Source of the DNA: Ceratodon purpureus
Lineage: Eukaryota > Streptophyta > Bryopsida > Pseudoditrichales > Ditrichaceae
NCBI GenBank assembly: GCA_014871385.1
Contig: CM026426.1
Location: forward strand, 109,092,457 to 109,156,456
Length of the DNA: 64,000 bases
Direction of reading: 5' to 3'
The position numbers were made by a program, and so were the translations under genes. Shown piece after piece: positions 9,147 through 51,702 of this stretch. Numbering within the stretch: position 1 is the stretch's first letter; each line of letters opens with the position of its first letter. The notes below the pieces were generated by a model. It was not told the DNA's origin. It searched no databases and worked only from the letters and a program-made list of their open reading frames with translations.

Positions 9147-10798
9147 ATGGTATCAGGAGCTAACCAAGATATTGCGAGCAGGTCCGAAGTTCGCAGCACG
9201 AGAATGTCCACCGGCGGATCGGGCACTCCCTCTAGAAGGAGGTCGAGCAGACCGGACGGAGATGAGTCCGCCAGCGGATTGCAGTCCGCCACTGGTTCCG
9301 GGAAGAGAGCCCGCAAAGAACTGGATTTGCAGCTGGACGTTTTCCACAATCGAGCTCTACTGGCTGGTGATGGCTGGAAGAAAGTGCCAGAGCCTTGGGA
9401 CGCTGCGACGGCTATGCATTTTGTCAACTTTCCTCATTTCGATCGGCTTTGGCCAGATAGTTCGCGCGCACAACACTCTAAGTCGAAGAACGCGAAATAC
9501 GCATCCTTGACAGACTTGGACGTGAAGTGGGGATTCTTCTGCATTCTTCGGGCAATCTCCAATGAATTGAAGTGGCCCAAGAACTGGATCCCGAAGGCTA
9601 TTCTTTCCCTGATGTATGCCGAGCATGTGTTGAAGAAGAAGGTCGGCTGGTCTACCTTAAAGACTCCAGGCTCCTCTTTCGGAGGTCTAGGAGAGAAATT
9701 GACAGCGAAGAAGCCGGTGCACATACCTTATATAGATGTGCCCGAATGGTTCAAGCGTAATCCTTCCCTCGTTGAAGATCCACGGGGTCCAATATCCACA
9801 GACAGGGAATCGTCGAGGGCCGGGAGACCACGGCAACGCACTATACAGAATGCGACGTACGAGGATCAGATGGCTGGCATGCTCGGATCCGGTTGGCAGG
9901 GAAGTGGGTCGGACCCCATCATTGGCGGGAGTGCGGGAGAAGGGTCGGGCGCGGCGACTGCATCCCATGCGAGGGACGGGGGGAACGATTGGACGGGATC
10001 GGCATGGGGGCCATCCGAGGCAGGTGAGGAGAGTTCCGGGCCAGATGTGGCTATGGTCGGATTGGAAGAAGTCGTCAACGCGACAGTAGCCTCCTTTTCT
10101 GGAGCTGACATAGACCTTGACATGGCGCACGGTGGGATCGAGAACGCGAATCCGGGTTTAGGTAGGTCGGACGAGGGTCTGGGTGCGTCGGACGAGGGTT
10201 TAGGTGGGTGGACCACAGATTCGATGGGAGAATCGCTCCGACGACCTCACGGGATTGGCGGATGCCCGGCTCGGAACACGGGTTATTCGGACAAGGTGCG
10301 ACAACTAGCACTGCCCATCACGATCCTCCTTAGCCGAGAGGTGCAGCAAACGTTGTATTGGGAGCAGACCCGGTAATGCGGCGTCTGCTAGAGGAAGTTT
10401 TTGCCAAACATGACGCGGACGTTCGGGAATTAAAAGCAACAATAGGTGGTTTGGAACTGAAGATAGAGGCTCTTCGCGTGTCCGACAGCGGGGACCAGAT
10501 GGCAGGAACATCGGTCACAGAGTTGATGCGAGAAAGGGACGAGGCGTTGAGATCCGCTGAGAGAGCAGAGGCACGGGCTAATGCATGGGAAAAGGATATG
10601 AAAGCCTCTATGTACGCAGCGAAATCGGCCGAGGACCTGACCACGCAGTTAAATGGCCAACTCAGGGACGCTGAAGAATGCATTTTGGCGTTGGAAACGG
10701 ATTCGAGGGAGATAAGCGTCCGACTTGAAGATGCGGAAAAGCGAGCAACTGCGGCGCATAGGAGGTCATGTACCGACTCTAAACCGATCAGTTTGTAA
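9147..10798 (+). pseudogene. Coiled-coil gene of the finger family, lacking the finger
   Basis: The first frame (9147-10376) has a Ser/Arg-rich start, then a globular segment with DVFHNRALLAG, HFDRLWPDSS, DLDVKWGFF and LKWPKNWIPKA. The layout parallels the N-terminal half of the minus-strand gene at 31425-33365 (DFFHRTLQF, DRWPGRSF, YLEMFWW, DPDNWAF), so I infer homology. An acidic, Gly-rich linker follows. At about 10350-10376 the frame shifts by one, and a coiled coil of about 130 residues follows (10358-10798; RERDEALRSAERAEARAN). The zinc finger expected next is absent before the stop at 10798. It could instead be a separate two-ORF gene. The function is unknown. Confidence 0.45.
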
Positions 10799-11790
10799 AT
10801 AGAGTTTGTTTATCACATTCCTGACACCGAAGCCATGATAGAGTGATTGTAATTCCACAATATTGGGACCAGAACCCTAAACACCCAACGTTTATTCCAC
10901 GCCGGACCCTCTCAAAATGGTCCGGCGACGCGGACCACCCCCTTGCCCACTGTATCAGCGGATGGTGCCCGTTCACATTGAATCCGTGCGATCCGACACC
11001 CTCCCGCAGTTACTAGTGTCCGACATCTAGTCCGCCCACTCCGCGTACTCATTGTGCTCGCTTTCCATTCTGTCTTACTCGCGTCCGAATCATGCCCGCT
11101 TACCAGTCCGCCTTAGTCGCGTCCGCATATTCCCCGCCATCCGACCCTAAACCCCGATCCGCATCCGCCGGTCCGGCCTCAATCGTTCGCTACATTAAAC
11201 CACATCCATCTTCAATCCTGGCGACGAGGAATGTCGGAAAGACCGAACGACTGGCCGACAAATACAGCTAGTGTCCCGTGCTTAGGCCGAGGCAATGTCA
11301 CAAATCCTCTTCAACAACGTGAAATTCAAACTGTGACCAACTCATGAACGAAAATCCCCAATAGAACTCACGAACACGAGAGTTGATCGGTGTGCACTTC
11401 AGTAGAATTTCAAAGTGCATAGATTTTTTTGAATGCAATGAATTTCGTGTTGATCCATCTATTGAACCATCTATTACCACACAGCCTACAGGACATTTGA
11501 AACACCATATTCATGTTGCAATGATGGAGCCTACTTTGATACACTGAGTGTAGAAGGAGGAGTACGAAGATATGAAGCCCTGAAGTGTATGTTGTCAAGT
11601 CACACTTGCCAATCCGAAATCAACCCCTCAAATCACCATAATGAGATGACCACCTTGGCGTTAAATATGGCGGCTGCCTGTAGGGGTAGCCATGGCCAGG
11701 GCAATTCCAGTCAATCCACGCCATCGCTGAGAGTTTTGATTGGAGTCGCCATTGCATTCTGGTTCCAATTTGTAGTTTGCTGGTCTGAGG
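10799..11790. other. Intergenic, GTCCGC-rich block
   Basis: No gene is seen. The block at 10930-11190 is dense in TCCGC/GTCCG words and begins with CGCGGACCACCC. A diverged sequence of the same style, also beginning CGCGGACCACCC, lies at 13795-14100. The two flank the finger gene at 11791-13270. Confidence 0.45.
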
Positions 11791-13270
11791 TTGCAAGGGT
11801 CCGATCGAAGAGGAGGGATATACCTGTTGCGAGTGAGAGGGGTCAGAATGGGAGAAGTTGGGAAGGAGAGTTACTTTCACGTGAAGGTTGGGTTGCCAAA
11901 TGCAGGTTTGGACCCCGCCTTCGACTGCAACCATGTCAGCAATGAGGAGCTAAGGTCCATATTCGGAGAGAAGGTTCCTGGGAAGGGATATCTCTTCGAC
12001 GGAGCGAAATCAAGAAAGGTCAAGGCGAGAGTGTTGGAGCTGTACCCAGTGATCTCTCAAATTCCCGAGCTTCCTGCTGGTTTGTTCCTCCCGGAGAGCT
12101 TCGCGAGAGCGGTCGTTTCGGAGGTTTTCCATCGCTACCCAATGAACTGGGCAAAGTATGCAGAGGATCGCTGGAGGGGTAAGAAAATTGAGAGTGGAGA
12201 CAAACTCACAGTCCTCTTTTGCACCCCTGACCGGAATGCCACCTATATTAAAATCCTCTCCAAGGGCCTAGAAGCCGAGATTGCGGACGCTGAGAAGGAT
12301 TGCGAGACGGCCGTGGCAACCCATCGTGTTGCACACGAACGGGCTGCGCTTTTGAGGCAGACGGCGAAGCCACCCCTCACGGATATGGACAGGTACAAGC
12401 TTCAGATCAAGCTGAGGTGCATTGAGGAGACTATAGACTCCTCAGAGGCGAAACTGCAGAAGTGGGGGGCGATGAAGTCTGTCGTCGAAGGCTCTGCTGA
12501 TGAAACATTCCTGAGGTTCTTCGAGGACGAAATCCACGGCGAAGAGCAGAGAATCTTGGAGGCTGGGGAGGAAGTGCAACGTATGAAGGAGGATTTAACT
12601 GAAACGTCGGCGAGGGATCTCGCGGGGGCCATCGACGATGAGAAACGCCTGTCTTCCGCAAAGCAGGATGCAAAGGACAAGGTGAAGGGCTTGAAAGAAA
12701 ATCTCCGCCAGCTTCAGATATGGTGGTCTACATCAATGTTCCGTGCCCTTAGTCCTCGAATCGCAGCGCCCACGCAGAACATCGACTCAATTACCTTTCA
12801 GTGCAAGGTTGCTCCCTTTGTAACCAAGGGTTTTTGGCGATGGACCTAGTGACTGCGTCCTGCGCTTGCCCATACCACCCGTGGTGCGCTGCAGTGCGGA
12901 CTTCGCTTGGTCAGAACTGCGCAAGATGCGGGGAGCATTTCGTAGAGAACTGGTTGAACAGCTTTGGCTTTTTCAAGTGCGAAGGTACGTCAATGTCGCG
13001 CATGTGCATTGATTTCCAGTATTGCTGAATCTGTTATGGAACTGAATATAACATACTTCTGACTTATGCGTCTGTATCTTGCATCTAATAAGCAATTTTT
13101 TATTGAAATTCGTTTTTGACATGGAGTTGTGCATTAGAGTGTCCATTGCGCTGGTCCGGAACTGATATCTGAGTTTTGCTACAAGAGTGCGAGTGGAGAT
13201 TGGCAGTGCGCCGGATACCGGAGAGGGAGAAAAGAAGCGCAAGCATTTGAACTCGGACATTGGAGGGTGA
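11791..13270 (+). pseudogene. Coiled-coil plus RING-like finger protein (family member A)
   Basis: The frame 11791-12849 encodes an N-terminal domain (NEELRSIFGEKVPG, VLELYPVISQIP, MNWAKYAEDRW) that aligns by eye with the gene at 42468-47026 (PDSLRKLFGKRYGDG, VKYLHPILYQHG, VNWCAFGEE). A coiled coil of about 150 residues follows. One base is missing at about 12808, so the finger lies in the next frame (12801-12985): CSLCNQGF, then CACPYHPWC, then CARCGEHF, then WLNSFGF. A donor follows at 12985/12986 in phase 1 (GAAG|GTACGT). A short last exon with a basic motif (GEKKRKH) and stop at about 13268-13270 is likely, with acceptor near 13193. The likely start is the Met at about 11845. The finger resembles RING/PHD folds, but ligase activity is not shown. 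The frameshift suggests a dead copy. Confidence 0.5.
12807..12940 (+). other. RING-like finger, member A
   Basis: The spacing is C-x2-C, about 14 residues, C-x-C-x3-H-x2-C, about 11 residues, C-x2-C, then W-x3-F-G-F. The same order is present in the two minus-strand relatives. Confidence 0.65.
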
Positions 13271-16503: not shown

Positions 16504-16582
16504 TTGGAGGGGTTGGATGGGAGGGGTCGGTTGGGGGGAAAAATGTGGTGGTTGAGGAGGATGTAGGCATCTTTGAGTGTGC

Positions 16583-21431: not shown

Positions 21432-21455
21432 GGGGCCCGGATTGGGTTCAATGTC
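21432..21455 (-). promoter_or_regulatory. 2A-like ribosome-skipping peptide in ORF2
   Basis: The codons read DIEPNPGP, preceded by LMLCG, about 43 codons from the first Met of the ORF2 5' frame (21584). This fits the 2A consensus D-[VI]-E-x-N-P-G-P, where translation skips the bond between the last Gly and Pro. N-terminal 2A-like sequences are established in some non-LTR retrotransposons, such as trypanosome L1Tc. Activity here is inferred from the motif only. Confidence 0.6.
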
Positions 21456-21584
21456 ACCACAAAGCATGAGAAATTGGAAGTTGTGCGTGGAAGAGTGGAC
21501 TAGGATGAGGGGTCTGGGGCGGCGGTGGTGGGGATGGGAGAAAAGATGAGAGATGATGGTGATTTTGTAGAAGGGGGGTACCAA

Positions 21585-25439: not shown

Positions 25440-25440
25440 G

Positions 25441-31424: not shown

Positions 31425-33365
31425 CTACTCCACGGCTGCATTTGTGGCAATAGCCTCAACAAGGCTCGACAGTCCCTCCATGTTGGTGTCGTCCTCGTTC
31501 TTCTCAGCTTCACCTGGTTCTTGCGTGGTGGCAGATGAAACCTTGTTCCCATCTCCGGATAGGGCTGCCTGGGTCTCATGAGGAGAGCGTTGCGTGGGAT
31601 CAAACGCTAGGGAGTCCGAGTCGAGGAGAGCATCCTCTGCAGTTGCTGCCAACAAACAAGAATTAGAAAAGAAGTAACATTCGGATGTAACAACAAGCAA
31701 TGGGTAGTTAGGTTTACGAGCAACAAACCTTGGTCGCCCTTGGCCTTCTTCCACGGAAGCGCGGGCACTGAGGGGGAAGCGGTCCTCTTGCTGCTAGGAA
31801 GTGGTGAAGCGGGCTTGGCCAGGAAGATCTCCTCCGTGAGACGTAACTCCTCCGCGGCCTTGGAGTCCAGGTCGAAGCCCCACTGCCCAAGCCATCCTCC
31901 AGTCATCCCCCGCTGCATCGGCGGCATCGGGCGTCTTGGGAGAAGACTGCCTCAAACATACAATGAGGATGTGCCAAGCAACCGCAGAACAAAGGCACGC
32001 AGCAGGTGTCAACGAAGTAACGCTCGCAGAAGGGGCATGGGTCGTTCAGGGCTACTGGCAACACCTAGAACTCCCGCGGGTAACGAGCCAACACCTTCTT
32101 CGGCCGCAAGAAAGCTGATGCCAACTTCAAGGCCGAGATCTCCACTGTCAGCGCGGAGACCTCAGCATGCCTTCTCTGCTCATCGGCTTCCATCTCCTCC
32201 AACTGCTTGTAGACCCTGTCAATGCGGGCCTGGGCCTCAAGGAGTGCCTTGCTTGCAAGCCCCAGCTTGTCTTGGCCTAAGCGGGCCGCCTGGTCAAAGC
32301 GCCTCTTCTCTTGATTGTTGCCATCAGCCGCGGCCTTCTTGGCGGCCTCGCCGGCAGAGAAGATATCGTCATAGAGCTTGGACTCCTCGGCCTCCTTGGC
32401 CTTGATGTAGTCTCGTTGGGTTGCAAGGTCGACCTTCACGCGGTCCCGGCTGGCCTCCACCTTCACAAGTGCCGCCTCCAATGACTTCTTCTTAAGGCGC
32501 TGCTGCTCCAGGACCTGCTTTGGATCTGTTGCCACCAAGGGCTGCACCTTGATGGCAACAGCAGTCGGGGTCTTCACGGCCTTCTTCTTAGCCACGGCCT
32601 TGGCAGGACCAAGCATGGATCTAGGACCCCTAACCTTCTTCGCCTCCGCGGCCGTGAAGGCCTTGGAGGTAGCTCCAACTGCCTTGGCTCCTCCGCTCGC
32701 AGCCGCCCCTCCGCCCTTGCCCTTGCTGACAGCACTAGGGACGTGGTCTGCGAGGAAGTCGATGATGGCCTCAATCTGCTCCCTCAAGGCCGGGGGTGTC
32801 AACTTCTGCGGATTACGCCGTGGCAGCTTCTCGCGCCCCTTTACAATTGCCTCCGCCTTCTGGGCGAAGTTCACATCCACGCCCTCCTCAAAGTAGATGT
32901 GGCAAGCCCGAAGGAAGGAGGTCGCGAATGCCCAATTGTCAGGGTCACCTCTATAGGTCCACCAGAACATCTCCAAGTATTTCCTCTAGGCCTCCGGATC
33001 CTCACAGTCAGCAAAGTAGTGCCGCCCAAAAGAACGCCCTGGCCATCTGTCGATGAAGTCGGCCTTCCTGCAATGCTTGTTGCCGCTGAGGTCACTGAAC
33101 TTGAACCCCTTGTTGGAGAACTGCAAGGTGCGGTGGAAGAAGTCCTCATCGTATCCGCAGCCTGCCTACCCAGCAGAAATGGGGCGAGGTGGTGGAGATG
33201 TCCATGGCGTGCAAGGGGTAAGCCCTCCAAGTCAAACGCATCATCCCATGGCGTCTCAACATCGTTGGCATCCTCCTTGTTGTCAGCAAGCTCGACGACC
33301 TCCTTCTTCTCAGTGCGATCCTCCTCCCGAGAAGCCGCAGCCTTTTCCTTCCTACGGCTCGACAT
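31425..33365 (-). pseudogene. Coiled-coil plus RING-like finger protein (family member B)
   Basis: The start is taken at the Met at 33365 (MSSRRKEKAAAS). After an acidic segment, a frame change near 33165 leads into DFFHRTLQFSNKG, DRWPGRSFGRHY, then TAG at 32986-32988, then RKYLEMFWWTYRGD, DPDNWAF and an Ala/Lys-rich linker. A coiled coil of about 140 residues (KKKSLEAALVKVEASRDR) follows. After TAG at 32065-32067 the frame continues into the finger: CPFC, CGCLAHPHC, CRRC (about 32025-31915). A one-base slip in GGGGGATG leads to WLGQWGFDL. The intron is 31728-31646 (donor CAAG|GTTTGT, phase 1; acceptor TTGGCAG). The last exon is acidic and Gln/Glu rich and stops at 31425. The function is unknown; a DNA-element accessory protein is inferred. 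It lies downstream of the transposase-like fragment at 34190-35095 on the same strand. Confidence 0.55.
31915..32030 (-). other. RING-like finger, member B
   Basis: The order is CPFC, about 12 residues, CGCLAHPHC, about 10 residues, CRRC, then W-x3-W-G-F in the next frame. The same Cys/His spacing as in members A and C shows this is a conserved domain. Confidence 0.65.
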
Positions 33366-33589
33366 CCCTGGCGCTGGTAGTGCAAAAACAACACGTTTTA
33401 CGATAGGGGGATCGCGCATGGCAGCTGAAAGCAGAGAAACGGACAGGGTATTATTCTTGCGGATTAGACTAGTCACATTTTCTCTCCAAAAATCCTTTAG
33501 AACTAAGGACTCCGGCGGCCATGGCTGAACCACTGTCTACTCCGAATACACCATGGCCGATTCACTCCAACAGCTAATTAAAAAAAACC

Positions 33590-34180
33590 ATGCGAGGAGG
33601 CTCGGAGGAGAGAGCTGAAAACCAGCAGCTTACCTCACCGAAGTCCGAAGCAGAACTGTTGTTGCTCCTCCCTAGCTCGCCCCTCGCGCCTCGCTGCTCG
33701 TCTCTTGCGCCTCCTGAAATGTTCGCCTCCACAACTTGCCCATGCGCGCCTCTGCAGCTCACCCCTTCTTCAGCCTCCGCGACTCGCCCCTTGCGCGTCT
33801 GCAGCTCCGCTCCTTGCGCCTCCCGGCACCCCTGCTACGACTTTGCTCCTCCGCAACTCACCCCTCCCCGCCGCCTCCGCTCCTCCCTTGCGCCTCCGCA
33901 GTTGCCCTCCGCAGCTCGCCTCCGCAGCCCCTTGCACCCTCGCAGCCCCTTGCGCCTCCGCAGCTCCTCGCAGCTCTTCGCTACCCCTTGCGTCTCCGCA
34001 GCTCCTTCCACCTGAGCAAGCGTGCAATGCAGCTCCCTCTTCAGCTCCTTGCAGCTCAGTCACAGCTCCCTTGCGCCCGAGCTCCGCTGCCCCCTCCTCC
34101 ACGGCCCGCGCCTCACGCTGCAGCTCCTTCGAGCTGCAATCCGCAACCTCCAACGGTTTCTTGCGCCTCCTTGGCTGTTG
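33590..34180. repeat. Low-complexity CTCCGCAGCTC-rich tract
   Basis: Variants of GCGCCTCCGCAGCTC recur through about 550 bases. They create long but meaningless ORFs rich in Pro, Ser, Leu and Arg on the plus strand and Glu, Gly and Ala on the minus strand. It separates the two minus-strand element genes. Confidence 0.6.
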
Positions 34181-34189
34181 CCCTTGGCG

Positions 34190-35095
34190 TCACCTGCCAC
34201 CGATCAGCAACGGCACGAAGACGCCCTCCTTCGTGTCCACGGTCTCTCCCCGGCACCCACAACCGTTAGTGGAGTTGCGACCTTCCTCAGGATCCACATT
34301 GTTGCCATCCTCCCTGGGGTCATCTTTGTTGGCAGAACCACTTGCTTCAGCATTGTTGGCTCCACCACCTCCAACGGTGTTATCACACACCCAAGCTCTG
34401 CCAACACGCCGTTGCCTTGACCGCCAATTCTCCAAAGCCCTGGCAGCATTTGATCGATGCCACTGTTCTCGCCTTCTACGTGTAGCCTCCATGCGGGCCT
34501 CATCATACGGGGTATTGAGAACCCTGATGCTCTCTAATTTCTTCTTATACCGATGCTATATATTTCGGTACTAATGTTGGAATTGTTGCAAAATAACACT
34601 GATGCGCTCTTTGCCACCACCATGAGCTGTGTGCGCCTGATTCGCTGCCTTCGCTTGATGATGGGATTTCTCCATACCCTGGAAACTCTATACAGCCAGA
34701 CTACCGTATTCCTCCACAAACCAACTGCCATGCCTGACAAGTACATGCTGTCAACAGCCACTCCAAGGTTAGATTTGGATTGAGAATTGAAGAAAGTAAG
34801 GTCAGCCATCAACCCCTTATTCATCCCAAACATCGTGTAAATAACTCACCATGTAGTGCGACACATGCTCCTCTCCAAAGGCCTCCAGAAATGTTCTCTC
34901 CAACGTTTCTATCTTCCCTTTGAACTGGAGTCGTTGTTCTGCTGTCAGCACCAAGCCGCTGAAATATGGTAGAACCTCTTCAAAGGCTTGCCACATAGTA
35001 GCCCTTGCCCTACGATGTGCACCGCCGCCACTATTATTGCTCTCTGCTTGACATATAGGTGTGTGTACACTAGACCAATGTACTTTTTGAGTCAC
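34190..35095 (-). pseudogene. C-terminal part of a transposase-like gene
   Basis: Exon 1 (35095-34850) encodes RATMWQAFEEVLPYFSG, LTAEQRLQFKGKIETLE and EAFGEEHVSHYM. The intron is 34849-34748 (GTGAGT...GACAG, 102 bp). Exon 2 continues HVLVRHGSWFVEEYGSLAV, then TAG (34688-34690), then SFQGMEKSHHQAK, then TAG (34571-34573), TAG (34556-34558), and a basic region to the stop at 34190. In the family as I know it the first stop replaces Trp (LAVWS), and the other two fit Trp and Gln. The segment corresponds to the region after the catalytic core of element proteins whose N-terminal part resembles 49464-50893. No catalytic core precedes it here, so the copy is 5' truncated near 35045-35095. Confidence 0.5.
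34748..34849 (-). other. Intron in the transposase-like fragment
   Basis: The donor reads ATG|GTGAGTTATT and the acceptor GCTGTTGACAG|CATGTA. Joining gives HYMHVLVRHGSWF in phase 0. Confidence 0.75.
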
Positions 35096-36436
35096 GGTAC
35101 ACTAGTCAAAGAGTACATTACTTTGTACTTTGTATTACCTAGGTTTAGGCGTTTCAATTTGAGTGTCTGGTTTGCTTTGCTTAGTTCTACATATGTGAAC
35201 TCTCTTCTGCGTTATTGAGTTACCTAAAAAACAAAGTTAATTGTCCCAAAAAAGTACTATTGTCAAGTACTATGGAAAAGTCACACTGTATTCAGATTTA
35301 AAAAAGTACAAATTTCGTAAGCCTCCAAGGTTCAGATCTTGTTTTCTTTTTTTTTAGAGGAGACAAGAAGAACCAGTCTCGTGGGATCCGTTGTAAATTC
35401 TACAAGTACGTCACTTAATTTGCACAGATCCTAGAAGTAAATGCTGGCTTCGGTTGCAACGGCTTACGAAGTAGAAAATGTTAATTTTTCTTAATCGGGT
35501 CTGTGATTCTAAACGGCTGGACATGTCTCTAGAATGGCCATCTCTCAAATTAAGTTTTTCCGTTACTTGGCCCTCTACGCCTTCCTGCGTGCTAATTAGA
35601 CTCAACGTACTTAGAAGTATATATTGTACTCGTAATGCGTAATAACTACTGCCTTGTTTTTGATGCCAGATCCTATTTTGCTAGGCCGCCATGTCATGAA
35701 GGCGCCGCCACCCTGTGATTTTGTCCACGTCATCGTCTCTCTCGTGGCTCTCCCCTCTTGGCGCTTGCAGCACACTGTTGCTTGTTTGATGCAGTATGCT
35801 GTTCGTCGTGTGTTGATGTTCATGCTGCATGCAAGGGTTTTGGTTGAATGCTGTAGTTCGCACTTTGTGTTGCAAGACACATCAACTTCATGAGTTCCCT
35901 GCTTGTTATTTCCTTTTGAATAATGTCAAGGTCCACGCCACACCAAGCTGTTCTAGTTCAGAGAGTGATTACTTCTTATTTTACGAAGGAGGTGATTTCT
36001 GAGTTTGAATCTTCTTGTTACCATTCACTTAGTGAGATATCTGAGTCTGGATATGTTGAAGAAACCCCAGTGTCTAAACAAGGGAATCGCGATTTCTACC
36101 TTGGCAAGTGCAACAACGTAGATGAGTCCCCAAGGCGTTCTCTATTCATGAGTCCAGTTTCGTATTCTTATTCCACCAGCAGCTTCGAGCGATCACCGTC
36201 TGTTTCGGTCGGAAGGGTTTCAGTTGGATCTCCTACTGCTTCTTGCGAATCAGTTGCGTTTAGGAAGTAGAGAGGCTGAGGCTCAAGGGTGAGTTCCCGT
36301 TTTAGACTCATGATACTGTGATTCTTCTTTGTTTCTCATGCAGTACTATTGAACCGTGTTAGCTTCTCAACTCCTCAACTACGTACTCTACTTTAGTGTA
36401 ACGTATCTGATCCGTGGCTTGGTTTTTGACGTGTGA
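35096..36436. other. Spacer; possible Ser-rich first exon of the next gene
   Basis: Most of this is noncoding. The plus-strand ORF 35923-36270 is Ser-rich (SPVSYSYSTSSFERSPSVS) and could be a 5' exon of the DDE-like gene that follows, with a donor near 36290 (CAAGG|GTGAGT), but two stops lie just before that donor. Called with low confidence and not merged. Confidence 0.35.
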
Positions 36437-39400
36437 ATGTGTATTAGATTTACCGCAATGGGTAACACTGCTAAGAGGCAGCGATTGCGGCATGGTGTTA
36501 GTCGTCCAGGTCTCGCAGCTAGGCAAGCTGAGGCCCGCTTGCAGGAAGAGCTGCAGGCAGCAGCTACAGATAGGGCTAGAGAAAGGAAGGCTCGTCAAAG
36601 AGCTAGAGATAGACAGAGACACGAGGAGACCTTGGTTTTAGCTTATGTGCTGCTGAATGACGATGTTGAAGATAGTATGACAGTGCGGGAGTTAAATCGG
36701 ATCTCCCTTCCCATAGCACAGTATGTAGTCGAGGAGTTGAGAAGTTGTCCCGGTCCATCGAGTAGGAGAGATGTTATAGAGTGGGTCATGCGTCATAACA
36801 CTATTTTGCCTTTGCTTCCTGTGTACTATGCTCGGCCACAGGAAGCAAAGGTAATTCATTCTTTTCTTGAGAACTTCAAAACGAGTTGCAGTTGGTGAAA
36901 GTGGCAAACTCAAACGAGCGCTTAGCAAGGAAGAGTGCATTGTTGGATGCCGCTATCAGTTTGGGGATTGACGGGGTGAGGCCTCTATCACGCGTTTTGG
37001 ATACAACACAAGCAAGCATCAATATTGCATTGAGTAGAAGAGTTTACGCCCCCAACCAAGTAGACACGGTTTGTAGTCTTCGTCTTCACCGGAAGAAGAG
37101 AGAGGGCCTGTCTGACTATGTGAAGCAGTGCATAGAGGCCTGGTGGAATGGTCAGACTAAGGTATCGCCGAACAAGAAGGACATTGTCCGGCACAGAGTA
37201 GGTCGCAGAGACTGGGCCGAGCCGCATCCAACACATTATCTCTGTGAGACTTAGGTAAGTTGTAAGACTCCAAAAAGATTTCATTTTTTTGGCAGAGCTG
37301 AATGCTCAGTCCTTGTGCTTTTGAGCTCTTGTTGTACAAAGAAGATAGTAAAAAAATGGAGAGTACTCGACATGAGTTTCCCAGTAACTACTATACTGCG
37401 TGTTCTATCTGGTCTATAGTCTTCGATACATAATGTTGGAAAAAGAAGTCCTTAGATAACCACGGTCCATAGAGTAGCTCGGAGGTGTACTCTTTGTAAA
37501 TTTAGCTTATCATGTGGTCTCTCTAGAGCGAAACTTCACTTGTACTTATCGTATTTATTGATTCTTCTAAAGGTCTTGTACTACTAACCACTAGGAATGA
37601 GGAGTACAGAAGTGGTTTTCAACGTATTCCTAGTACTGTGTGATATCAAGTCGATTGTCTCTTTGTACATAAAACTACTTAGTGTTGTATCAGTAGGGAT
37701 TTAAAGTTATAGATGTACATTAGAAGTTCCTTCAATATACTTATTGTATAAATAATATACCAGAGCATGTACGTTGTTACCTTAATTTAGCATTCACAAT
37801 TGGGACTAACTAGTTTCCATGTACTGTTTTGGGCGTTTAGTACTTCGAGTATTTTAGCGACCCACGGTAGTCTTGAAACCCTGCCATATTGTACAAGTTG
37901 GTTCTTTACAAAGTACTTATAGCAGCGTGAATTGTACACAATGGTTTTGAATGTATGTGTCGAAGCGTTTTTGTATTTTGTGGTAGTAGTTTGTTGCATT
38001 CAGTACAATTATGTACCATATGTCGATATGGACCTAAGCTTGTGTTTTGCAGACCACATTCTTCTTACGATTCGAAGAAGTCCATCCAGAATGCAGTGTG
38101 CGGCAGAGAGCTTTTGAGAGGTTGAAGCCGTGGTGGGTGCAAAAATTAAAGGAGAGGAATACATGTTGTTGTATATATCATGTCGAGATGGACATGATGA
38201 AGGTTGGATTAAGCAACCTCAGAGAGAAGTCTCCACGACTGCATGCACAAATGACCTGTGTTTGTGACTGTCAAGTATGCGCAAGCAACGTGGAGGGGAG
38301 TTGTCATGCACATGAGAATGTTTCAAGCAAATAACCTTGATGTGGGAGTCATGTGTGTGTCCAAAAGGGGAGTGCGATATGTGGCATAGACTTGAGTGCC
38401 TTATGGGCGACTGTCCTCATTGCGGTTTCCATCTTTTTCTTTTCTGTCCTCTAGAGTTGTCTGCTTCTAACACGGCCCTTGTGAAATGGAAGTGCTTTGA
38501 CTACTACCAGGTGGGAGTGGATGCACAGACTGGAAAGGTGAAGAAACGGTTGTGGGAGGCTTTCAGAGAGACACATGCCCACGAATTCCTTTTGTACATG
38601 GAGAAAACCGTGACCACCTTCATCACCCACAACTTCAAAGCACGATGGCAAGATGAGCAGTGCCAACTCATGATGAAAAACGTGCCAGAGGGAGTTGTCA
38701 TATCGCATATTGACTATGCGGAGAACTATACATTTGCTATCCAGAACGAGGTCCAAAGCTTGTACTACTTTAGTACAAGTGTGACCATCTTAGTGCACAT
38801 CACGATGTGGAAGGAAGACGAGCAGACCATGAAACAGACTCATTTCTACATATCCGACGACAAGGCGCACGATTCAGCGTTTGTGCAACATTGTTTGCTG
38901 TTGCATTGGGATTGGCTAAGAGATTCGGGGTTGACTCCAGAGGAGCATTGGGTGTACAGTGACGGATGCAGTGCCCAATTTAAGTGTGCAACAGCTATGT
39001 ATTTCGTTGCTTGGTACCCTGCGCTCACCGGTGGTTGCAAGATGCGTTGGAATTACTTTGAATCGGCTCATGGGAAGGGAGAATGGGATGGAGCAGGGGC
39101 TGTGGTGAAGAGGGCGCTTGCTGCTGAACAAATTCAGAATCCCTTGAGGCCCTTACAAAATGCAGCTCAAGTTGTAGAGTTTTTGGAGGAGAAATATACA
39201 GAGCGTGTTCCCAGCTCATATGCACAAACCAGAATTGCTCCTCTATCCCGAGTATTCTAGTTGATTGGAGATACAGAATGTGATCATGCTGACAAGAGTG
39301 TGAAGTGTAACACTTTGCCAAGCTCGAAGAGTCTCTACTCAATCATGGGATTTTCTATGACTGATCCTACCATGCTTAGAACTCGTGAGTTGTCTTGCTT

Positions 39401-39959
39401 CTGTAATCCCTGCATAGATGGTGATTGGACTGAGTGTGAGAACTTGTCACATGTGCAGGAGTGGAAGGTCCAAAGGCTCCGACCATTCAGTGCAATTGCC
39501 GTAGCTCAACAAATTGAAGAAATTGACGAGGAAGCAAACTGGGTGTATGACGGCGTTTCAGAGGAGGTGGGAGACTTGGTGGACATTGGTGACAACTTCA
39601 TGATTCTAGCGGAAGAAGACAACGAAGACGGGGTGGAGTTCTACATTCTCCAGTGTCAAGCCAAGAAGTTCGTCTTAACAGAACCCATGACTTGCCCATG
39701 GGGGGGCGTATTCAGGGCCGGAGACATTGTGATCAGGGCAAAATACTACAAGAAGTATGGTCGTGGAGAGAAGACATATGTATTGTGTGACAGAGCAGTT
39801 GATGCCCATGTTGATGCCCATCTGGTTAGAGCTTGCAAATTTCCGATGGTTCTTGCTCCACATAGGGTAAAGGGTACTCCTGTATACAAGATGTCAAGTG
39901 AAACACAAAGGATATGTGAAGATGCTTTGCGAGAGTGGTGGGCGTTCAATGCAGATTAA
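36437..39959 (+). pseudogene. DDE-like transposase gene, broken by frameshifts and stops
   Basis: The likely Met is at 36458 (MGNTAKRQR). An Arg-rich helical start leads to LPLLPVYY. One A is missing from an A run near 36880, shifting the frame to ELQLVKVANSNERLARK. The exon ends with TAG at 37252-37254 (Gln in the family, THYLCET-Q) at a donor. The intron is 37255-38052. The next exon has LKERNTCCCIYHVEM and CVCDCQVC. A frame change near 38325 leads to WESCVCPKG and CPHCGFHL. The core shows ISHIDYAENYTFAIQNEVQS (first Asp), TQTHFYISDDKAHDS-like ISDD, VYSDGCSAQFK (second Asp) and SAHGKGEWDGAGAVVKRAL (Glu). TAG at 39258-39260 is followed in frame by RELSCFCNPCIDGDW and a tail to 39959. I know this family from plant and animal repeat proteins; the triad assignment is inferred. 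Confidence 0.6.
37255..38052 (+). other. Intron of the DDE-like gene
   Basis: The donor is TAG|GTAAGT and the acceptor TGTGTTTTGCAG|ACCACA. Joining THYLCET-x to TTFFLRFEEVHPE keeps phase 0. The 798 bp interior is AT-rich with no ORF worth calling. Confidence 0.65.
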
Positions 39960-40750
39960 GTACAAGTTGGTCCACTCTGTACTCTGATTTTAGGATAGTT
40001 TCTCATTTGATGTTGGTTTTAGAAGTAGTGGTCCCGTGATGATACAAGTCAAACAAATGCTTGGGTATTTGTCTGACTGAAAGTGAGCTCTAGAGATGTC
40101 CCGCTATCCAAGTGCTCCCACTTTTTTTGCTTCAGTCATCTACTGTCTGGCATAGTAGTCTGTGATTAAGAAAACCTGCAATCCATTTTTTTTTTTATTC
40201 TTTCTAATCTTCTTTTTTTAATTTCATTTTGTACCTTCTAATGTCATTCTCTTTTGAATCCGTGCCTTTTCAGTGTGCCTTTCCTTTTTTCATTTTGAGT
40301 CAGGCAGGACGATCATAGTTCTACATTTTGCTGGATATTAGGTATTGTAGTTTTTTTCCTTTTTTTTTGGCCCTTTTACAGATAGCACTGGATAGCGGTA
40401 CCTCAAGAGCTCATATCTGAGGATAGCAGTGATATGCGGATGGTAGGAATTGGGAGCTATCAGACCTTGGTGAGAGGTTTGTTTCTCATTTGGGGTTGGT
40501 TTTAGAAGTACTGGTTGGTGTTTTGACAAGTACTAAGAGTACTCAAGCAATACCATCGAAAGTACTTTTAGGATTTGAAATATTGATTCGCTACCTCGAA
40601 TTGTTGCCTGAGTTTATAAACTCAATTTAAATTCTTCTCTATTTTACTGAAGTATATAATGTTTGTTGTAGATGAATTCTACTTGCTTAAGTGCGAGCAA
40701 CATTTTGCAGCTGGCCTATTTGTAAGTACAATATATCCAAAACATGTGCG
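39960..40750. other. Intergenic, T-rich
   Basis: This is the 3' flank of the DDE-like gene with several T runs (40188-40235, 40350-40372). Nothing is called. Confidence 0.5.
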
Positions 40751-40756
40751 AAGATA

Positions 40757-41046
40757 AAGTCTACAGCCCTACAGTCACTGTCACTTGAATTACATCTCGT
40801 CTCTACATACATTAAGGGCAGCCGCATGAAAAATACAAGAATGTGCAAATGTGTGCATACTTGAGAAAATGGTAAAGTTCAGGCAAAATGCCGAAGTCTA
40901 CAGCCCTACAGATATCAGTTAAGCTGACTGTCATTTGAATTACATCCTGCTGTACATACATTAAGGGCAGCCGCATGAAAAATACAAGAATGTGCAAATG
41001 TGTGCATACTTGGGAAAATGGTAAAGTTCAAGCACAATGCCGAAGT
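40757..41046. repeat. Tandem duplication of a 137-149 bp unit
   Basis: AGTCTACAGCCCTACAG begins near 40758 and again near 40895. The block CATTAAGGGCAGCCGCATGA recurs at 40810 and 40959. The second copy carries about 12 extra bases after the first 20. It directly adjoins the stop of the SUVR-like gene, so it forms that gene's 3' untranslated or flanking region. Confidence 0.8.
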
Positions 41047-42151
41047 CATCTACTCCTACGAGGTGTGCGGGGGGGCTTTCGGACTGCAAGTGGTACTGTA
41101 CCGTCTCTACACTTAGCACTTTTGCATTTACAAGAAAATATAGGCAAATCCGGATCTTCTTTAGAAAAGTCTGTGCCATAATCCCATGTTAGTTCCTCTC
41201 CAGGATTTATAATTCGACTAGCAAAGAATGCCACATGGTAATATCGGCGATCAACACTCTCTATTGACACTGGAATGTCCACTAAGTTAGAATCTTCACA
41301 CCTGTAGGACAAAGGCCCACGGTCAGGTCACATTGAATTGGACACAAGGAAGGGGAGGCCGATGTAGAGAAAATGGAATTAGACTCTAACCTGTGGTTCA
41401 AAAATCTGGCAACATTTCCAAATCGAGCACTGTCCAAGCACAATGCATTGTTGTCGTCCAAATTCCGCTCTGTGGTCCAATCAGCATCGAGTTGCAAGCT
41501 ATAGGACTGACCCCTATCTACCCCCGAGTTTCTAAACATTTGCTCAACATTGGTTAAAATCTCTCCCATCAACTCAAAAACAAACGCACCTCTAGGTATA
41601 TGCTCACATGTCCAAATCCCCCATCCCGTAAGGGCTGTACGAAAAACCTCTACTGGATACTTCATCCCCTGCTGAACAACACGATTCCCACAATCACCAC
41701 GACACCTACACTTAACATTGCACTCCTTAACAAATGGGCGAGGCACATGACCCTCACAAACTTCATTTCCATTTAGACACATTGAACCCTTCTTAGAGTA
41801 GTTAGCATCGGCGGTGTTGAACCGATCAAAAGCCATGTCCTCCAGAAGTCCTCCATCACTGTAGCCGATTCCACCTAGGGACTGCTCTTGGCATGCACAC
41901 GTACCACTCCCACGGAGACATTCCGAGGAACACAAGCAGTAGTCCCCGCGGCGGAAACTCTCTAGGATGGTAGGTACCCGGGCCTGGTCATAGACCACAC
42001 TAGAGTTCACATACTGAAAATAACGCATAGCAATATCAGACTGACCAATAAGGATAGGCACCCTCTCAAGCCCATTAGACAGATCTTCAGGATCATACCA
42101 ACTGTCGGCCTGGTTGAATCACATCCCACCAGACCACCTTCCCCAAGTCAT
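41046..42151 (-). CDS. SUVR-type histone-lysine methyltransferase (pre-SET, SET, post-SET)
   Basis: It would methylate a histone H3 lysine (H3K9 in characterised SUVR4-like enzymes). Exon 42110-41391 covers WYDPEDLSNGLERVP, the Cys-rich pre-SET (CLCSSECLRGSGTCACQ to CRCRGDCGNRVVQQG) and SET parts GAFVFELMGEIL and ARFGNVARFLNH. The intron is 41390-41302 (GTTAGA...CTACAG). Exon 41301-41046 completes the NHRC motif, then VPVSIE-like core, RIINPGEELTWDYG (catalytic Tyr) and post-SET CKCKSAKC. All key residues are present. Upstream, either an acceptor at 42111 (TTCAACCAG) joins an unseen exon, or the Met at 42151 reads through TGA at 42119-42121. The N-terminal WIYLD region of plant SUVR proteins was not found in the next 4 kb, which hold an element gene. 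It could be a real gene with a distant first exon or a captured fragment. Confidence 0.8.
41302..41390 (-). other. Intron splitting the SET NHxC motif
   Basis: The donor is AACCACAG|GTTAGA and the acceptor CCTACAG|GTGTGAA, 89 bp. Joining restores FLNHRCEDSNLVDIP. Without splicing the catalytic Tyr and post-SET part would be lost. Confidence 0.9.
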
Positions 42152-43209
42152 GATGCGAAAAAAACGAAGTGCAAAAAAATATCCAACATCGGAGCAACCA
42201 ACTACCTACTGCACAGTTATTCAAGAACTAAAAACATCAAATAATTCATCAAGGAAAAAACTTATAAAAAATAACATCAATGCCAATGGATAAACAGAAA
42301 ATCTCAGCCGTGAACAGTTCTCGTTAGAGGGGCCTCATAGATGAGTATGATACATGGAAGTACCTGCAATGCCAATGTATCCAAGCATACTAGTGCAGCT
42401 AAATAACAAAAACCAAAAATAACAAAAATAATGAACTGTAACGACAGTCCACACTCTGACCCTCATTCTATGTGGCACCTCTCCGTCTCTTTAGTAAGAG
42501 ATCGCCACCTACCTTATCACCCTTCACCTTCTCCCCCCGTTTAGTCTTAACCTTGGTCGAAGAAGGAGATTCTTCTGATGTTGGCTGGGCCTCCTTTGCA
42601 GTGCGTGCTCTGGTCCGCACTTGTCCCTCTGCAACGATTGGGCTGCTGCCCTCTCCTCCGGCAATCTCTGTAAGCTCCTTATAGGTTGTCTTCTCAGCCG
42701 AGTACATGTTTTTTGGTGCAGTAAGATCCCCTGGTGTTGTGTCATCGGACACGCTTGGACCGCGCGCCCTCTTTGCCCTTAGCTTGAAAGGAGACCTAGG
42801 ACTCTCCACTGCCGATTTTGTCCCCTTCGATGCGGGCTCCCCCTCCTTTCTGGCAGGCTCTCCTTCTTCTGCTGCTGCGGGCTCCACTTCCTTTGACTCT
42901 GGCTCTCCTTGCTTTGCTACGGGAGATCCTCCCTTCGTGGCTGGCTCCCCTTCCTTCCCGCATGGCTCTCCTCCTTTCACAGCCGGATGCGCTCCCTTTG
43001 CCGCGGGCTCCCCTTCCTTCCCCCCCTTTGCTTTGCGTCCTTGCAAGCATTGGGATCCTGGTTTCGTTGGGATGCTCTTTAGAGCCTGCGGTGATGACTT
43101 CCTCTCCTTGCCCTTCTCCCCCTCTTCTACCTGCAACTTCCTCTGAACCCCCTTCTCATTATCCCTCTGATGCGCTGGACTATGGCCCGCTCCCGAGGCC
43201 TCCATCACT

Positions 43210-43440
43210 AATTCCAGTAGGCTGCCTCCCCCTACCGAGAAACACCTGGTTACTTCCATTGGGGTGCTGCCAATTCCACCCGCTGGGGTGCTGCCCCCTC
43301 CTCCCATTGGGCTCCTTCCCCCTCCTCCTGCTGGCCTGCTGCCCCCTCCTGCCCCTTGCATGCTGCCCCCTCCTCCTGCTGGCCTGCTCCCCCCTCCTTC
43401 CCCTTGGCTCCTGCCCCCTCCTCTTGCCAATATATCATCT
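43210..43440 (-). repeat. Gly-rich coding minisatellite in member C
   Basis: Degenerate units coding for GGGGSRPAGG, GGSMQGAG and GGRSPMGG recur about eight times. A second set of KEGEPA/KGGEPA units lies at about 42830-43010. Both keep the frame, so they arose while the protein was read. Confidence 0.7.
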
Positions 43441-45097
43441 CCTCCCGCTAGCTCGCCGTCTCCTACCAGTATCTGTACACCTCCTCCCGCTGCACCGCCG
43501 GTCTGGACAACCTTGAAATACTCAATGCCATCCAGTGGAGATGGTGCCGTGAGAGTGTCTCTAGGCTTGGCTGGGCTGGCTACCAAGACGGGTTGCTCAG
43601 TTTGATCACCGTCGTCACAACCTCCATCCTCACCATCCCCCATTGCCTCCTCAGAATCTGCGTCGTCATTGTCGTTGGTACCTAAAATCGTAGTGCCAAA
43701 GCTAGAATGATCTCTTGACATCTTTATCTCTTCTTCATCCTCCAAAGAATCTTCCCCAGACTCCAAATCGGATTCTGATCCCTTCAAAGGATTCCCACCC
43801 GTCAAGGCCTCCATCACCATTCCCTCAACCGGCTTCACTTCACTTCTTTCTCGCCTCTCTTGAGGCCGCGCTGCCTTTGCCATCAAAGGCGATGCCTCCC
43901 TGTATCCCTCACCTTCCCTTCTCGACCAATTTGCCTGACTTGTCTCTCCCTCCACGCCGCGGCTTGAGTTGCTCAACTTAAAAGGAGGTGGTGCAAACCT
44001 CAAGCTCGAGCCTGCCATAACACACAACATTAGACTTTGTAGAAGTTGTAACCAATGTACTGAAATACACAAGCACTCTAGGATGAACTAATGAACTAGT
44101 ACTATGTCTACCTATAAGAACTACACTATTGGTGCTTCTGTACTAAGCCAGAGTATTTACTGTACTCCCTAAATCCTACTGGATTAGTGACTAACCTAGA
44201 TGACTTTTAGTACAAAGTGGATAGAAGACAAAAAATACCTGTTGTAGCTCCGTCAAGTATAGTGCTCACTGCGTACAAGGGAAGTTAGTACATTTTCAGC
44301 CCAGACTTTGGATCTAGAGTACACAAAGTGCTTGCTGTAGTTGGTTGCATGTACCTAAATACTAAACACTCTGTATTTAGGTATTTAGGTACATCCTTGG
44401 AATACACTTTCTTCTAGGCTAGTACACTAAGACATCTCGTGGACACATACTCTCCATGACCCCAATTCAACCCTTAACTCTTCCATCGCAGTTTATGTAC
44501 ACATTGTAATTTCTGAGTGCACCTTTAGTACTACTAGAGAACTCTGTGTACCCTTCTTAAAAGCCAACCCTGTATTAACCATACATCTAAGGACAAACTA
44601 CCACAACTCCAAGTTCACTAAGACACTTGCAGACTCAAATGGAAATGACAAGATATACAAGTACAAGGGAGAAGGTACATTACCGAACTTTCCAATATTC
44701 CCTACAGAGTGGACTCCTGGTTTTACCTAGTGTTTCATTCCATAAGTTACACTATGTACCAATAGACAAGGCTAGACTACTCAAACGAGTAACCAAGGCC
44801 ATGTACACATAACTCTGGGGACAGTTGGCACTTAGAGACCACCAAAGAACTTGTAGTCTAGAACACCTAAACCGCAAAGCATCTGAAAGCAGTGGCCTGC
44901 TGTGAAGGTTAAATACTGAAAATAACAAAGATTGGAAGTCACGTAAACATACCATCCAAGGGCACCAGCGCCCCAGCTTGCTCTGTTCTCTCTTGTAGCA
45001 ATCTTCTTCTCTCCTCAGCCAACCCCAACATCAACGCCCTCTCTAGAAGCTCTCCAGGTGGCTCCCCCCAACCGAAGCTCCAATGCCAGTCTGGATA

Positions 45098-45235
45098 GGC
45101 CAACTCTCCGCACCCTTCCGCCACACACTTGCAGCTTCGCACATACAACACCGAGGCACAGTAGGGATGGTACAGATGCTTACAAGAGCTAACAACTATA
45201 TCATTCTAAGGAAATGGAAAATCGCACAAGCTACA
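45098..45235 (-). other. RING-like finger, member C
   Basis: The order is CSLC, then CKHLYHPYC after about 14 residues, then CKC and C-G-E, then W-x3-F-G-W. A TAG lies between the first and second Cys pairs. Confidence 0.65.
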
Positions 45236-47026
45236 AACAGTAATTCGAATGAACTTGCTCTCATCAGTGACATCAAACTCTACTTTAGCCGGATCTCCAA
45301 GTGCATACACCATTGGCTGGAGGCTGTAATTAGCACCACTCCTTCCCTGTTTGAGGGCAAATTTCTCTGCTGCAAGAGCATCGAATTGTAGCTGTCCGGT
45401 TTCTAATCCCCTTGTCACCAACCGGATCTCAGCTTCCGCGGAATTCAGCTCCTCCCTCGCAGATGCAGCCTTCACATCCTCCTCCGCTAACTGTTCTTGG
45501 ATTCCCTCCATTTTGATTTTCTCCTTGAACACATCGGCCCCTTGCTCCTCTAGTCCCTTGATCAGTGTTGCCTTTTGTTCCTCTTGCTTCTTCAGCGTCT
45601 CTACACCCCATTCCGACTATTTGCTCCTCCAAACCGCGCCATCAAGCCTCTGTGCCGCCTTCTTCTTCTCATCTCGCTTGTGCTTCAGCTCCGAGTGTAT
45701 TGCTGCCATCAGACCTTCAACAACTCAGATTCGCTCCAAAGCTACACCCTTCTTCAGCTCTGTACCCCTCCCCCCAGCTCCCACGTCTTCCTGCAAACAT
45801 ATCCCCGACTCCCTTGCGGACTCAAGCCCACCATCCCCCTCACCATAGCGAAGCTTTCCTCCACTCCGCACTGTTCCCTCAGACCCTGCTCCCTCCCCCA
45901 CCTTCCGTCAACCCTGCTCCCTTCCATCGCTGCCCTGCTCCATCTTCACCTTGAAACCGCCCTCGACCTTGATTCCCCGCCATTCGTTCCCTCGCACGTC
46001 AATCCTTCCCTTCCCCTCCACGCTCCTAGACTCTGCGATCTTCTTGCGGAGCTCATCCAGCTTGATCCGATCCAGTTGATAGCGACTTCTCTGTCGCTTG
46101 TTTGTCTCTTCTCCAAACGCGCACCAATTGACGCGGCCCCCACCCTCCTCATACTCAAGAGTTACCCCCTCAGCAAACCGCACCGTGATGAGGTTGGGGG
46201 TCTCCCCTTCTCCATGTTGGTAGAGAATCGGATGTAGGTACTTAACTCTATCGACGACCTCAACCTTGTCACAATCCTGCCAGTAAAAGCCGTTGCGCCC
46301 ACCATCTCCATACCGCTTCCCAAACAATTTCCGCAACGAATCAGGGGGAACAGTACCCCTCCGAAAGTGATGCGGATTTTCCCCTTCGTTCTGGAGCCCA
46401 AATTTGTCCTCGAAATCCCGTCTCTTTAGCTCTCTGGGTGGCTTCTTCAACCTTGCAATCTCCTCGTCTACATCTTCTACGCTGTTGATAGCTCGTTCAG
46501 ACCTCCCTACGGACTTCCCCCTCTTCTTCGCGCTATCCTTTGCAGCTCCTCCGACTTCATGAAGAGCTCCCCCTCCTTCGCCCCATGCAGTAGCTCCTCC
46601 TTCTCTCTCATAGGGCTCCTTAGCCAATGCTGCTCCCTTCTTCGGCGCTACATTGTCCTTGAAGCTGACGCCTGCTCGGCCTCCTTTCACCCTCGACCTC
46701 GCCTTCTTGCGCGCGGATCGCAACTCGCCGTCTTCGTCGCTGCACTCGCCCTGCCTCCCTCTCGCCCTCACCGAACCGCTTCTCCCGGCACGAGCACTCG
46801 CAATGCTGCCAGACCTCCCGCTCATGGATCGATCCATGCTGCCCCCTTCTCTCGGTGCACACTCCTGGCCCACAGCTAGAAACCCGAACTGATCAAGAGC
46901 AATGCTACAGCTCTTGGGCAACGCAATGGCTCCAAAAATCACAATTAATCCCCCTCGCCCCACACATCTCTCCCCTCCCCCTACACCGAGCTTCTCCGCC
47001 CATACACCAAGCCTCCCCGCCCACAC

Positions 47027-50967: not shown

Positions 50968-51702
50968 TCAGTTCCTTTGGACAACAAACTGCACCACATT
51001 TGGTTGCAGCACTGTCCGCACAAGCTTCACTCTTACTTTTGATCCACCTGATCCAGGTTTTAACTCGTGAATCCCTCTGAGAGCCCTCCTCCTATTTCGC
51101 CTCCCCATGGGGGTCTCCTTCTCGAAGCTGGCCCTCCGCTGGCAGCGATCAACGTCTTCTTCGACACCCCGCACATGGCGCTCCAATTGCTCCACCCTTT
51201 GGGCATGGCAATCACGGACAGCCTGTAATTTAGCTTGCAAATCCGTGCATGTCTTCTCTAACTCAAGGCAACGCATTCTCCCCAATTGGACATCTTCGGC
51301 TGCCCTTGAGTTGCTGGCCAGAGCTTCGCCTCGAAGCTGAAGGACTTCTTCGCTCAACTGTGCCAACTGGATCCACGTCTCCTCCTGTGTAGGACCATGT
51401 ACACAATGATCCAGCAGCCTGTATGTATATCCGCATAGACCCCGCTCTCCATAACATATGAATTCAATGAACTCTTTTAGCGACTTGATTGGAGGTGGCT
51501 TCCCTGTCACTGGATCAGCAGGGTAAATGTCTCCATTGATCCACAAGTCAATGTTCATGTCTCCACGCAACCTCCGTGTTGGAAACGAGCTCCTCATGCA
51601 CAGCTCCACTTGCGTAGAACCTCGTCTCATGACCGGGGCATAGTATGTGTCCAGTGCAAAGTGGGGAATGTACTGATTGATCTGTGCAGCCCTTGCTGCC
51701 AT
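50968..51702 (-). CDS. Hypothetical protein with coiled coil, likely 5' part of the adjoining element
   Basis: An ORF of 244 codons. The first half is globular (FALDTYYAPVMRRG, NIDLWINGDIYPADP, LKEFIEFICYGERGLCGY). The second half is a coiled coil (about residues 110-190; TDLQAKLQAVRDCHAQRVEQ) and then a basic stretch (MGRRNRRRALRGIHEL). It lies just upstream of, and on the same strand as, the transposase-like gene, 75 bp from its first recognisable codons and in another frame. It is either a separate gag-like ORF or its N-terminal exon. No stop interrupts it. Confidence 0.45.
   Translation of the reverse strand: MAARAAQINQYIPHFALDTYYAPVMRRGSTQVELCMRSSFPTRRLRGDMNIDLWINGDIYPADPVTGKPPPIKSLKEFIEFICYGERGLCGYTYRLLDHCVHGPTQEETWIQLAQLSEEVLQLRGEALASNSRAAEDVQLGRMRCLELEKTCTDLQAKLQAVRDCHAQRVEQLERHVRGVEEDVDRCQRRASFEKETPMGRRNRRRALRGIHELKPGSGGSKVRVKLVRTVLQPNVVQFVVQRN

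Follow-up and report, generated by a model that had tools for sequence, protein, structure and literature searches.

What kind of gene recurs, in broken form, at three places within a single stretch of the Ceratodon purpureus genome? The window, by which we mean the whole 64,000-nucleotide stretch analysed here (contig CM026426.1 of assembly GCA_014871385.1, positions 109,092,457 to 109,156,456 of the forward strand), holds three loci that a first-pass annotation bounded at 11791-13270 on the plus strand (A), 31425-33365 on the minus strand (B) and 42468-47026 on the minus strand (C), and for which it proposed common descent, the lack of an accepted name and carriage by a mobile element. Our sequence comparisons make it nearly certain that A, B and C are homologous and belong to a single eukaryotic protein family, a well-supported grouping for which we found no Pfam or NCBIfam name. 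With moderate confidence, we read them as decayed copies from three deep clades of one multigene family encoding what would be a hairpin-paired nuclear RING ubiquitin-ligase protein. The N-terminal part, coil, finger, W motif and phase-1 donor described earlier are seen at all three loci, and in the intact protein an N-terminal domain (N-domain) is followed by a long antiparallel hairpin of helices, then by a finger of RING type and the cap W-x3-[FW]-G and, past a phase-1 intron, by a tail. The parts of the three loci are as follows.

11848..12792, plus strand: A, N-domain and coiled coil in one open frame (tblastn 86% to P0001 residues 1-329, at 11848-12834)
12795..12984, plus strand: A, finger C-x2-C-x13-C-x-C-x2-H-P-x-C-x10-C-x2-C and WLNSFGF, to donor AAG/GTACGT, in a frame differing from that of the coil (tblastn 91% to P0001 residues 317-393, at 12795-13025)
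33153-33419, minus strand: B, first ~90 residues, in another frame (tblastn 60% over P0032 1-90)
32068..33165, minus strand: B, N-domain and coiled coil in a single frame that an in-frame stop interrupts at 32988-32986 (tblastn 64% to P0032 81-512)
31906..32064, minus strand: B, finger CPFC..CGCLAHPHC..CRRC, preceded by an in-frame stop (32067-32065) (translation, tblastn and finger pattern)
31729..31915, minus strand: B, WLGQWGF and tail in another frame, to phase-1 donor AAG/GTTTGT (tblastn 63% to P0032 503-567)
31646..31728, minus strand: B, putative phase-1 intron of 83 bases (top-scoring donor and acceptor of the stretch)
31425..31645, minus strand: B, putative exon 2, an acidic tail ending SLVEAIATNAAVE (C-terminus resembles P0035 KLVDAIATSAVP)
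44953..46837, minus strand: C, exon 1, with the N-domain at about 46504-45935, the helical hairpin, the finger within 45250-45065 and the W motif (tblastn 75% to P0005 over 605 residues)
44012..44952, minus strand: C, putative phase-1 intron (acceptor 44011 is second best, at 8.9, but opens into the exon 2 frame)
42513..44011, minus strand: C, putative exon 2, a low-complexity acidic then basic linker, open throughout (frame open to the stop at 42470-42468)

The decay takes a different form at each locus: A changes frame between coil and finger, the main frame of B carries two in-frame stops and a frame change at both ends, and exon 1 of C is a single frame interrupted by four stops at 45910, 45727, 45619 and 45208 (TGA, TGA, TAG and TAG). 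Protein searches found at least 37 relatives, 4 with A, at least 27 with C and at least 6 with B; the C query was a profile of C and three A-type relatives, and the C and B searches scored only the 7,994 candidates with the most common words, so that the counts are lower bounds. The closest relative listed to A is P0001 (83% identical); among the matches listed, the closest to C is P0005 (628 amino acids, 78% identical) and the closest to B are P0033 (91% over 60% of the query) and P0032 (66% over 99%). Several relatives, including P0005, P0032 and P0001, are full-length and open, the intact ones coming from environmental DNA; the window copies are therefore broken members of a family that has intact members.

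That the family lacks an accepted name, as proposed, agrees with the domain searches: a Pfam domain is listed for none of the 37 relatives, and a Pfam scan of the window pieces and seven relatives gave nothing above cut-off. A literature search with most subscription journals outside its scope showed, among the papers listed, none on this coiled-coil RING family. Scans of a viral and a prokaryote contig collection (viral_contigs and genome_contigs), each with one or two short peptide patterns, gave no confirmed relative. We set a viral or prokaryotic origin aside on this ground, an absence that is only suggestive because the patterns were short and the collections may omit records close to the genome of the window.

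Common descent has to be weighed against the reading that the three loci are unrelated, their likeness being that of coiled coils and a chance finger. When the comparison was confined to the window, the A and C fingers matched (best E 4.5e-9) and B against A gave an E of only 0.97, so that B stood unlinked, as unrelated loci would have it. Profile-profile alignment, set beforehand as the test of the three loci, rises above background once outside relatives are included, the B-C finger alone excepted: hhalign joins the clade profiles along most of their length (A-C 5.4e-19, A-B 1.1e-12, B-C 6.2e-8), with a rerun without context giving 8.3e-17, 2.4e-9 and 1.7e-5, respectively. As controls we used column shuffles, 50 each and quoted by their best score, for all but the whole-length A-C pair; too-short rows were dropped, leaving 5/6 B, 3/4 A and 12/12 C rows for the finger and 5/6 B, 4/4 A and 12/12 C rows for the N-domain. 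The fingers scored 36.0 against 16.8 for A-B and 67.7 against 18.4 for A-C, the N-domains 48.3 against 23.9 (A-C), 38.6 against 20.3 (A-B) and 27.6 against 21.8 (B-C), and the whole lengths 51.8 against 35.5 (B-C) and 77.1 against 29.7 (B-A). The B-C finger by itself, at 18.6 against 18.3, is not clearly above its shuffles, a further point for unrelated loci; B and C are therefore linked by way of A, by their N-domains and by the alignment of their whole lengths.

Matches across clades point the same way as the profiles, with tblastn of P0037 and P0002 hitting the C finger (E 0.003 and 5e-9) and that of P0021 hitting the A N-domain (4e-4). A maximum-likelihood tree of 21 rows, comprising the three window members and 18 of the 37 relatives picked as near full length, resolves three starred clades with one window member each; the branches of P0037, P0002 and P0003 are long, and the grouping of P0002 with P0003 carries a program warning that it may be spurious. 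Profile comparisons and tree thus agree on common descent. Against these alignments, controls and cross-clade matches, independent origins are highly improbable, and we regard them as refuted for A-C and A-B.

A relaxed finger pattern, devised after the loci had been seen, matches the six-frame translation of the window exactly three times, at A, B and C, and 20 block-shuffled windows not at all. The full-finger pattern, which permitted 12-14 residues between ligands 2 and 3 and 2-3 between ligands 4 and 5, is matched by 26 of the 37 relatives (A 3/4, B 5/6, C 18/27); the other 11 are mostly fragments. All 26 full fingers have x13 and x2 at these places, and the middle part of the finger reads C-x-[CH]-x2-H-P-x-C, where the first-pass annotation had counted three residues before H-P. 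RING fingers have eight zinc ligands with 2-3 residues between ligands 4 and 5, and PHD fingers have 4-5 residues there. The family shows the eight ligands with RING spacing, x2 separating ligands 4 and 5 in all three window fingers and in all 26 full ones, a spacing on which we reject a PHD finger and which bears out the RING-like character claimed earlier; the finger is very probably a RING. Ligand 4 is His in 18/18 C-type fingers, giving the RING-H2 order, and Cys in 8/8 A- and B-type fingers; the W-x3-[FW]-G motif is present in 27 of the 37 relatives. The C-type shares with the RING-H2 domains of RNF165, Arkadia and RNF38 the spacing C-x2-C-x13-C-x-H-x2-H-x2-C, but has x4 between the last two ligands, whereas the A- and B-types carry Cys at ligand 4 and the family as a whole lacks conserved ligase residues and any match above the Pfam cut-off. 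The best score against a curated RING model falls below that cut-off (zf-RING_2, E 0.0052, 17.5 bits versus 27.3, for P0011; 7 of the 37 relatives scanned).

Structure prediction adds a view of the remaining parts. In a model of P0011 built from 22 sequences, the block means of the predicted local distance difference test (pLDDT) are 71-93 for the N-domain, mostly 74-95 for the hairpin and 66-76 for the finger, and the N-domain of C folded alone reaches a predicted template-modelling score (pTM) of 0.77. The N-domain is confidently predicted to be mostly helical and of an unfamiliar fold; its best Foldseek match has an E of 5.9, and Z is at most 3.3 among 37 chains compared. The idea that it resembles a plant transposon-protein domain found no support in Pfam. 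Four RING domains stand in the top 50 Foldseek rows of the P0011 model (RNF165 5ulk, Arkadia twice and RNF38; probability 0.87-0.99), the RNF165 match having a probability of 0.99, a TM by target of 0.75 and a root-mean-square deviation of 1.7 over 47 columns. The top 50 of a viral structure library includes some RING-annotated giant-virus proteins, with E above 0.001. Matches of the coil to Smc, seryl-tRNA synthetase and others were discarded as signs of kinship, reflecting a common helical arrangement.

A hand count from coordinates gives phase 1 for all three donors, that of A at 12984, that of B at 31729 and that of C at 44953. By scores from a crude matrix, the A donor (9.7) and the B donor are the best of their stretches, and the C donor ATG/GTATGT is joint best (8.9), its acceptor at 44011 scoring 8.9 against a best of 10.2 at 44915. 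The Gly at the C donor codon is invariant in the 12 C-type proteins of the alignment, most of which continue past it into dissimilar residues, as expected if a gene caller reads through a G/GT donor. The donor follows SFG by ~6 residues in the A-type and by ~40 in the C-type, with B about as far as C, so that the phase is common and the exact position in A is not. For A, no second exon was identified. The relatives P0034 and P0035 are open past the B donor, and their last tail residues, LV[DE]AIAT[SN]A, resemble the window's exon 2, the BLAST matches of the B exon 2 tail being weak (E 0.096 to P0034 and 1.2 to P0035).

Downstream of C, on the same strand, ~350 bases past its stop and in matching splice phase, lies an open frame (41046-42109) that, judging from its domain matches, likely encodes a SU(VAR)3-9-related histone methyltransferase of the kind acting on lysine 9 of histone H3 (H3K9).

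42110..42512, minus strand: putative phase-0 intron, C exon 2 to SET exon (donor AAG/GTAGGT 9.9, best of the stretch; acceptor AACCAG/GCC at 42109 fifth best, 5.4)
41391..42109, minus strand: Pre-SET domain and beginning of the SET domain (Pfam matches exceeding the cut-off, 2.4e-10 for Pre-SET and 2.9e-9 for SET)
41046..41301, minus strand: remainder of SET, with NHRCED spanning the splice junction, then CKCKSAKC resembling post-SET, to the stop (spliced translation)

The top relatives of this frame in the PDB are SETMAR, EHMT1/2 and SUV39H2, and removal of its one putative intron (41390-41302) restores NHRCED. Like SUVR methyltransferases it combines Pre-SET and SET without an SRA match, C exon 2 being also without one; unlike them it has no WIYLD match in the four C frames scanned (45617-45910 left out), and a RING/coil exon lies upstream instead. 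The essential His and Cys of SUVR proteins appear, on our assumption, to be those of NHRC in the SET frame. The SUVR study names a His and a Cys as essential catalytic residues (PMC4260354). No in-frame ATG precedes Pre-SET, so that the frame has to be joined to an exon upstream of it, the closest open candidate observed being C exon 2. An adjacent direct repeat of ~140-155 bases, 86% identical, covers 40757-41047, at the end of the SET frame and past it.

How might such a protein work? The combination of a globular N-domain, a coil that may dimerise, a finger of RING type and charged tails indicates a scaffold or a ligase, and a role as a coiled-coil RING scaffold or ubiquitin ligase is likely. 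We envision that the protein would pair through its hairpin in the nucleus, that the N-domain would bind a target and that the RING would recruit a ubiquitin-conjugating enzyme (E2), by analogy with other long coil-then-RING proteins; dimerisation, nuclear place, ubiquitin transfer and high copy number are what we infer beyond what the sequences show, namely homology, the order of the domains, the spacing of the zinc ligands, the phase of the intron and the decay of the window copies. BRE1/HUB-type proteins, in which a long coil precedes a C-terminal RING, have the same order, but the family adds the N-domain, the W-x3-[FW]-G cap and the tail, and Pfam scans show no kinship. TRIM proteins, built as RING, B-box and coiled coil in that order, also combine RING and coil; membership among them is rejected, the family having its coil before the finger and no B-box match in Pfam scans. 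From sequence features, catalysis by the finger itself can be proposed only tentatively. E2-binding RINGs keep a hydrophobic residue before ligand 2, and active ligase RINGs usually have a Pro following ligand 7, a helical Trp and a linchpin Arg/Lys following ligand 8. By eye, all clades retain the eight ligands and the hydrophobic residue, in line with E2-binding RINGs, while the latter three are not conserved, and this divides the evidence between a ligase and a RING fold without ligase activity, that is, a structural or chromatin-binding scaffold gripping partners through the finger and the cap. The prevalence of the cap in 27 of 37 relatives, set against the missing ligase-type residues, makes such a scaffold a real if doubtful possibility. 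Besides those residues, several observations weigh against our preferred reading of a RING ubiquitin ligase: every copy in the window is broken, the whole P0011 model has a mean pLDDT of 67 and a pTM of 0.39, no Foldseek E reaches 0.001 or below for it in the PDB or the viral library, and solved PHD and RING chains come out about level by sequence (EBS 0.79 and APC11 1.4; RNF146 0.4 and EBS 1.6). The comparison of the finger's predicted fold with RING and PHD, which the first-pass annotation had proposed, gave a mixed picture, the four RING chains in the top 50 standing beside a finger pLDDT of 66-76 and weak E values of 0.53 to 1.3, in a table that does not give the covered part of the model.

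The ligase reading also supposes that the family duplicates and decays quickly, which would explain why damaged copies from all three clades sit within 36 kb, and that clustering in turn suggests a numerous family. The same clustering and breakage, however, may be read as the mark of accessory genes of transposable elements, whose coiled-coil RING protein would modify or disarm host silencing while copies spread with the element. Neighbouring frames that look like reverse transcriptase and RNase H of a long interspersed nuclear element (LINE), a DUF7869 protein in the window and relatives that are fragments within long contigs (such as P0022 and P0027, with a listed contig of 199,587 bases apiece) lend themselves to this view. 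There is a precedent in DNA methyltransferases carried by charophyte and dinoflagellate retrotransposons (PMC5890265). A telling feature would be flanking repeats, and a weak direct repeat does lie around A.

10970..11109, plus strand: weak direct repeat flanking A, left copy, the right copy being at 13816-13941 (68% identity, E 4.5e-5)

This repeat of ~130 bases aligns with a score of 64, the highest among 100 shuffles being 28, but at 68% identity it may be a common repeat. Among repeats of at least 20 bases, those around B comprise only an A/T-rich 22-base inverted pair (82%) and those around C only A-rich copies of low identity, and both look like chance. The earlier description of the genes as element-borne is thus left without convincing flanking repeats at B or C; a Pfam scan of neighbouring frames recognised no transposase (38316-39257 being transposase-like by eye), and the scans of the viral and prokaryote collections gave no confirmed relative. 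We consider accessory genes of elements rather unlikely. A separate question is whether the C-type gene is one fusion of N-domain, hairpin, RING, linker, Pre-SET, SET and post-SET, which would couple ubiquitin with H3K9 methylation. Strand, proximity and the missing ATG before Pre-SET favour it, as do the phase-0 donor at 42513 and acceptor at 42109 and three introns in succession that preserve the frame, although that acceptor ranks only fifth on the crude matrix and the B-type proteins P0034 and P0035 end without SET. All four stops of C lie in exon 1, with exon 2 and the SET exons free of them, as if they were separate genes; however, of codons that C-to-T changes could turn into stops, exon 1 still has 31 besides its 4 stops, and 32 lie elsewhere, so that all stops would fall in exon 1 with a chance of about 7% (our own arithmetic), and the argument is weak. 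In Arabidopsis, according to the SUVR study, the WIYLD domain of SUVR4 binds ubiquitin and affects H3K9 methylation, a precedent for such coupling, whereas SUVR2 silencing works without its ubiquitin-binding and SET residues (PMC4260354), which speaks against it. The fusion is unlikely on balance, and still more improbable is the wider proposal of a transposon-borne or transposon-targeting C-type protein that would join the new-fold N-domain, a coiled-coil RING ligase module and a SUVR-like H3K9 methyltransferase into a mobile or rapidly copying ubiquitin/heterochromatin module. A family with three clades, many intact members and a confidently predicted N-domain for which no PDB match was found is now defined; should C-type genes prove to terminate in a SET domain, or to be carried by elements, they would be a novel instance of host silencing machinery being handled by genes that are mobile or copy fast.

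Other frames of the window resemble parts of the family without belonging to it. The first-pass annotation had taken 9147-10798 as a fourth member, and a profile comparison does not sustain this, the frame failing to align to the clade profiles (E 0.35, 0.62 and 0.73).

9135..10795, plus strand: non-member globular and coiled-coil frames (profile comparison of frame 9135-10373)

At the start of these frames, 9148-9160 on the plus strand reads TGGTATCAGGAGC, which, with one extra base, we take to resemble the initiator-tRNA primer site of plant long terminal repeat (LTR) elements, and the frame 9135-10795 may be a gag-like gene. Sites matching the LTR primer consensus with at most 2 mismatches are no more frequent in the window than chance predicts (4 observed, 4.66 expected). 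Two further candidates for N-domain relatives were rejected on their profile E values, namely frame 6476-7234 on the minus strand, which is globular with a PVNWA stretch like that of the family N-domain (0.25 and 0.49), and frame 50971-51744 (0.18).

Elsewhere in the window, the frames like LINE reverse transcriptase and RNase H lie at 14452-26557 on the minus strand, a likeness judged by eye, and GC skew there reaches up to 0.68. Large reading frames at 36437-39956 on the plus strand have no Pfam match above cut-off, and among them 38316-39257 we presume by its look to be transposase-like. The DUF7869 protein is at 52643-54207 on the plus strand (E 1e-27) and perhaps, we assume, comes from a transposable element.

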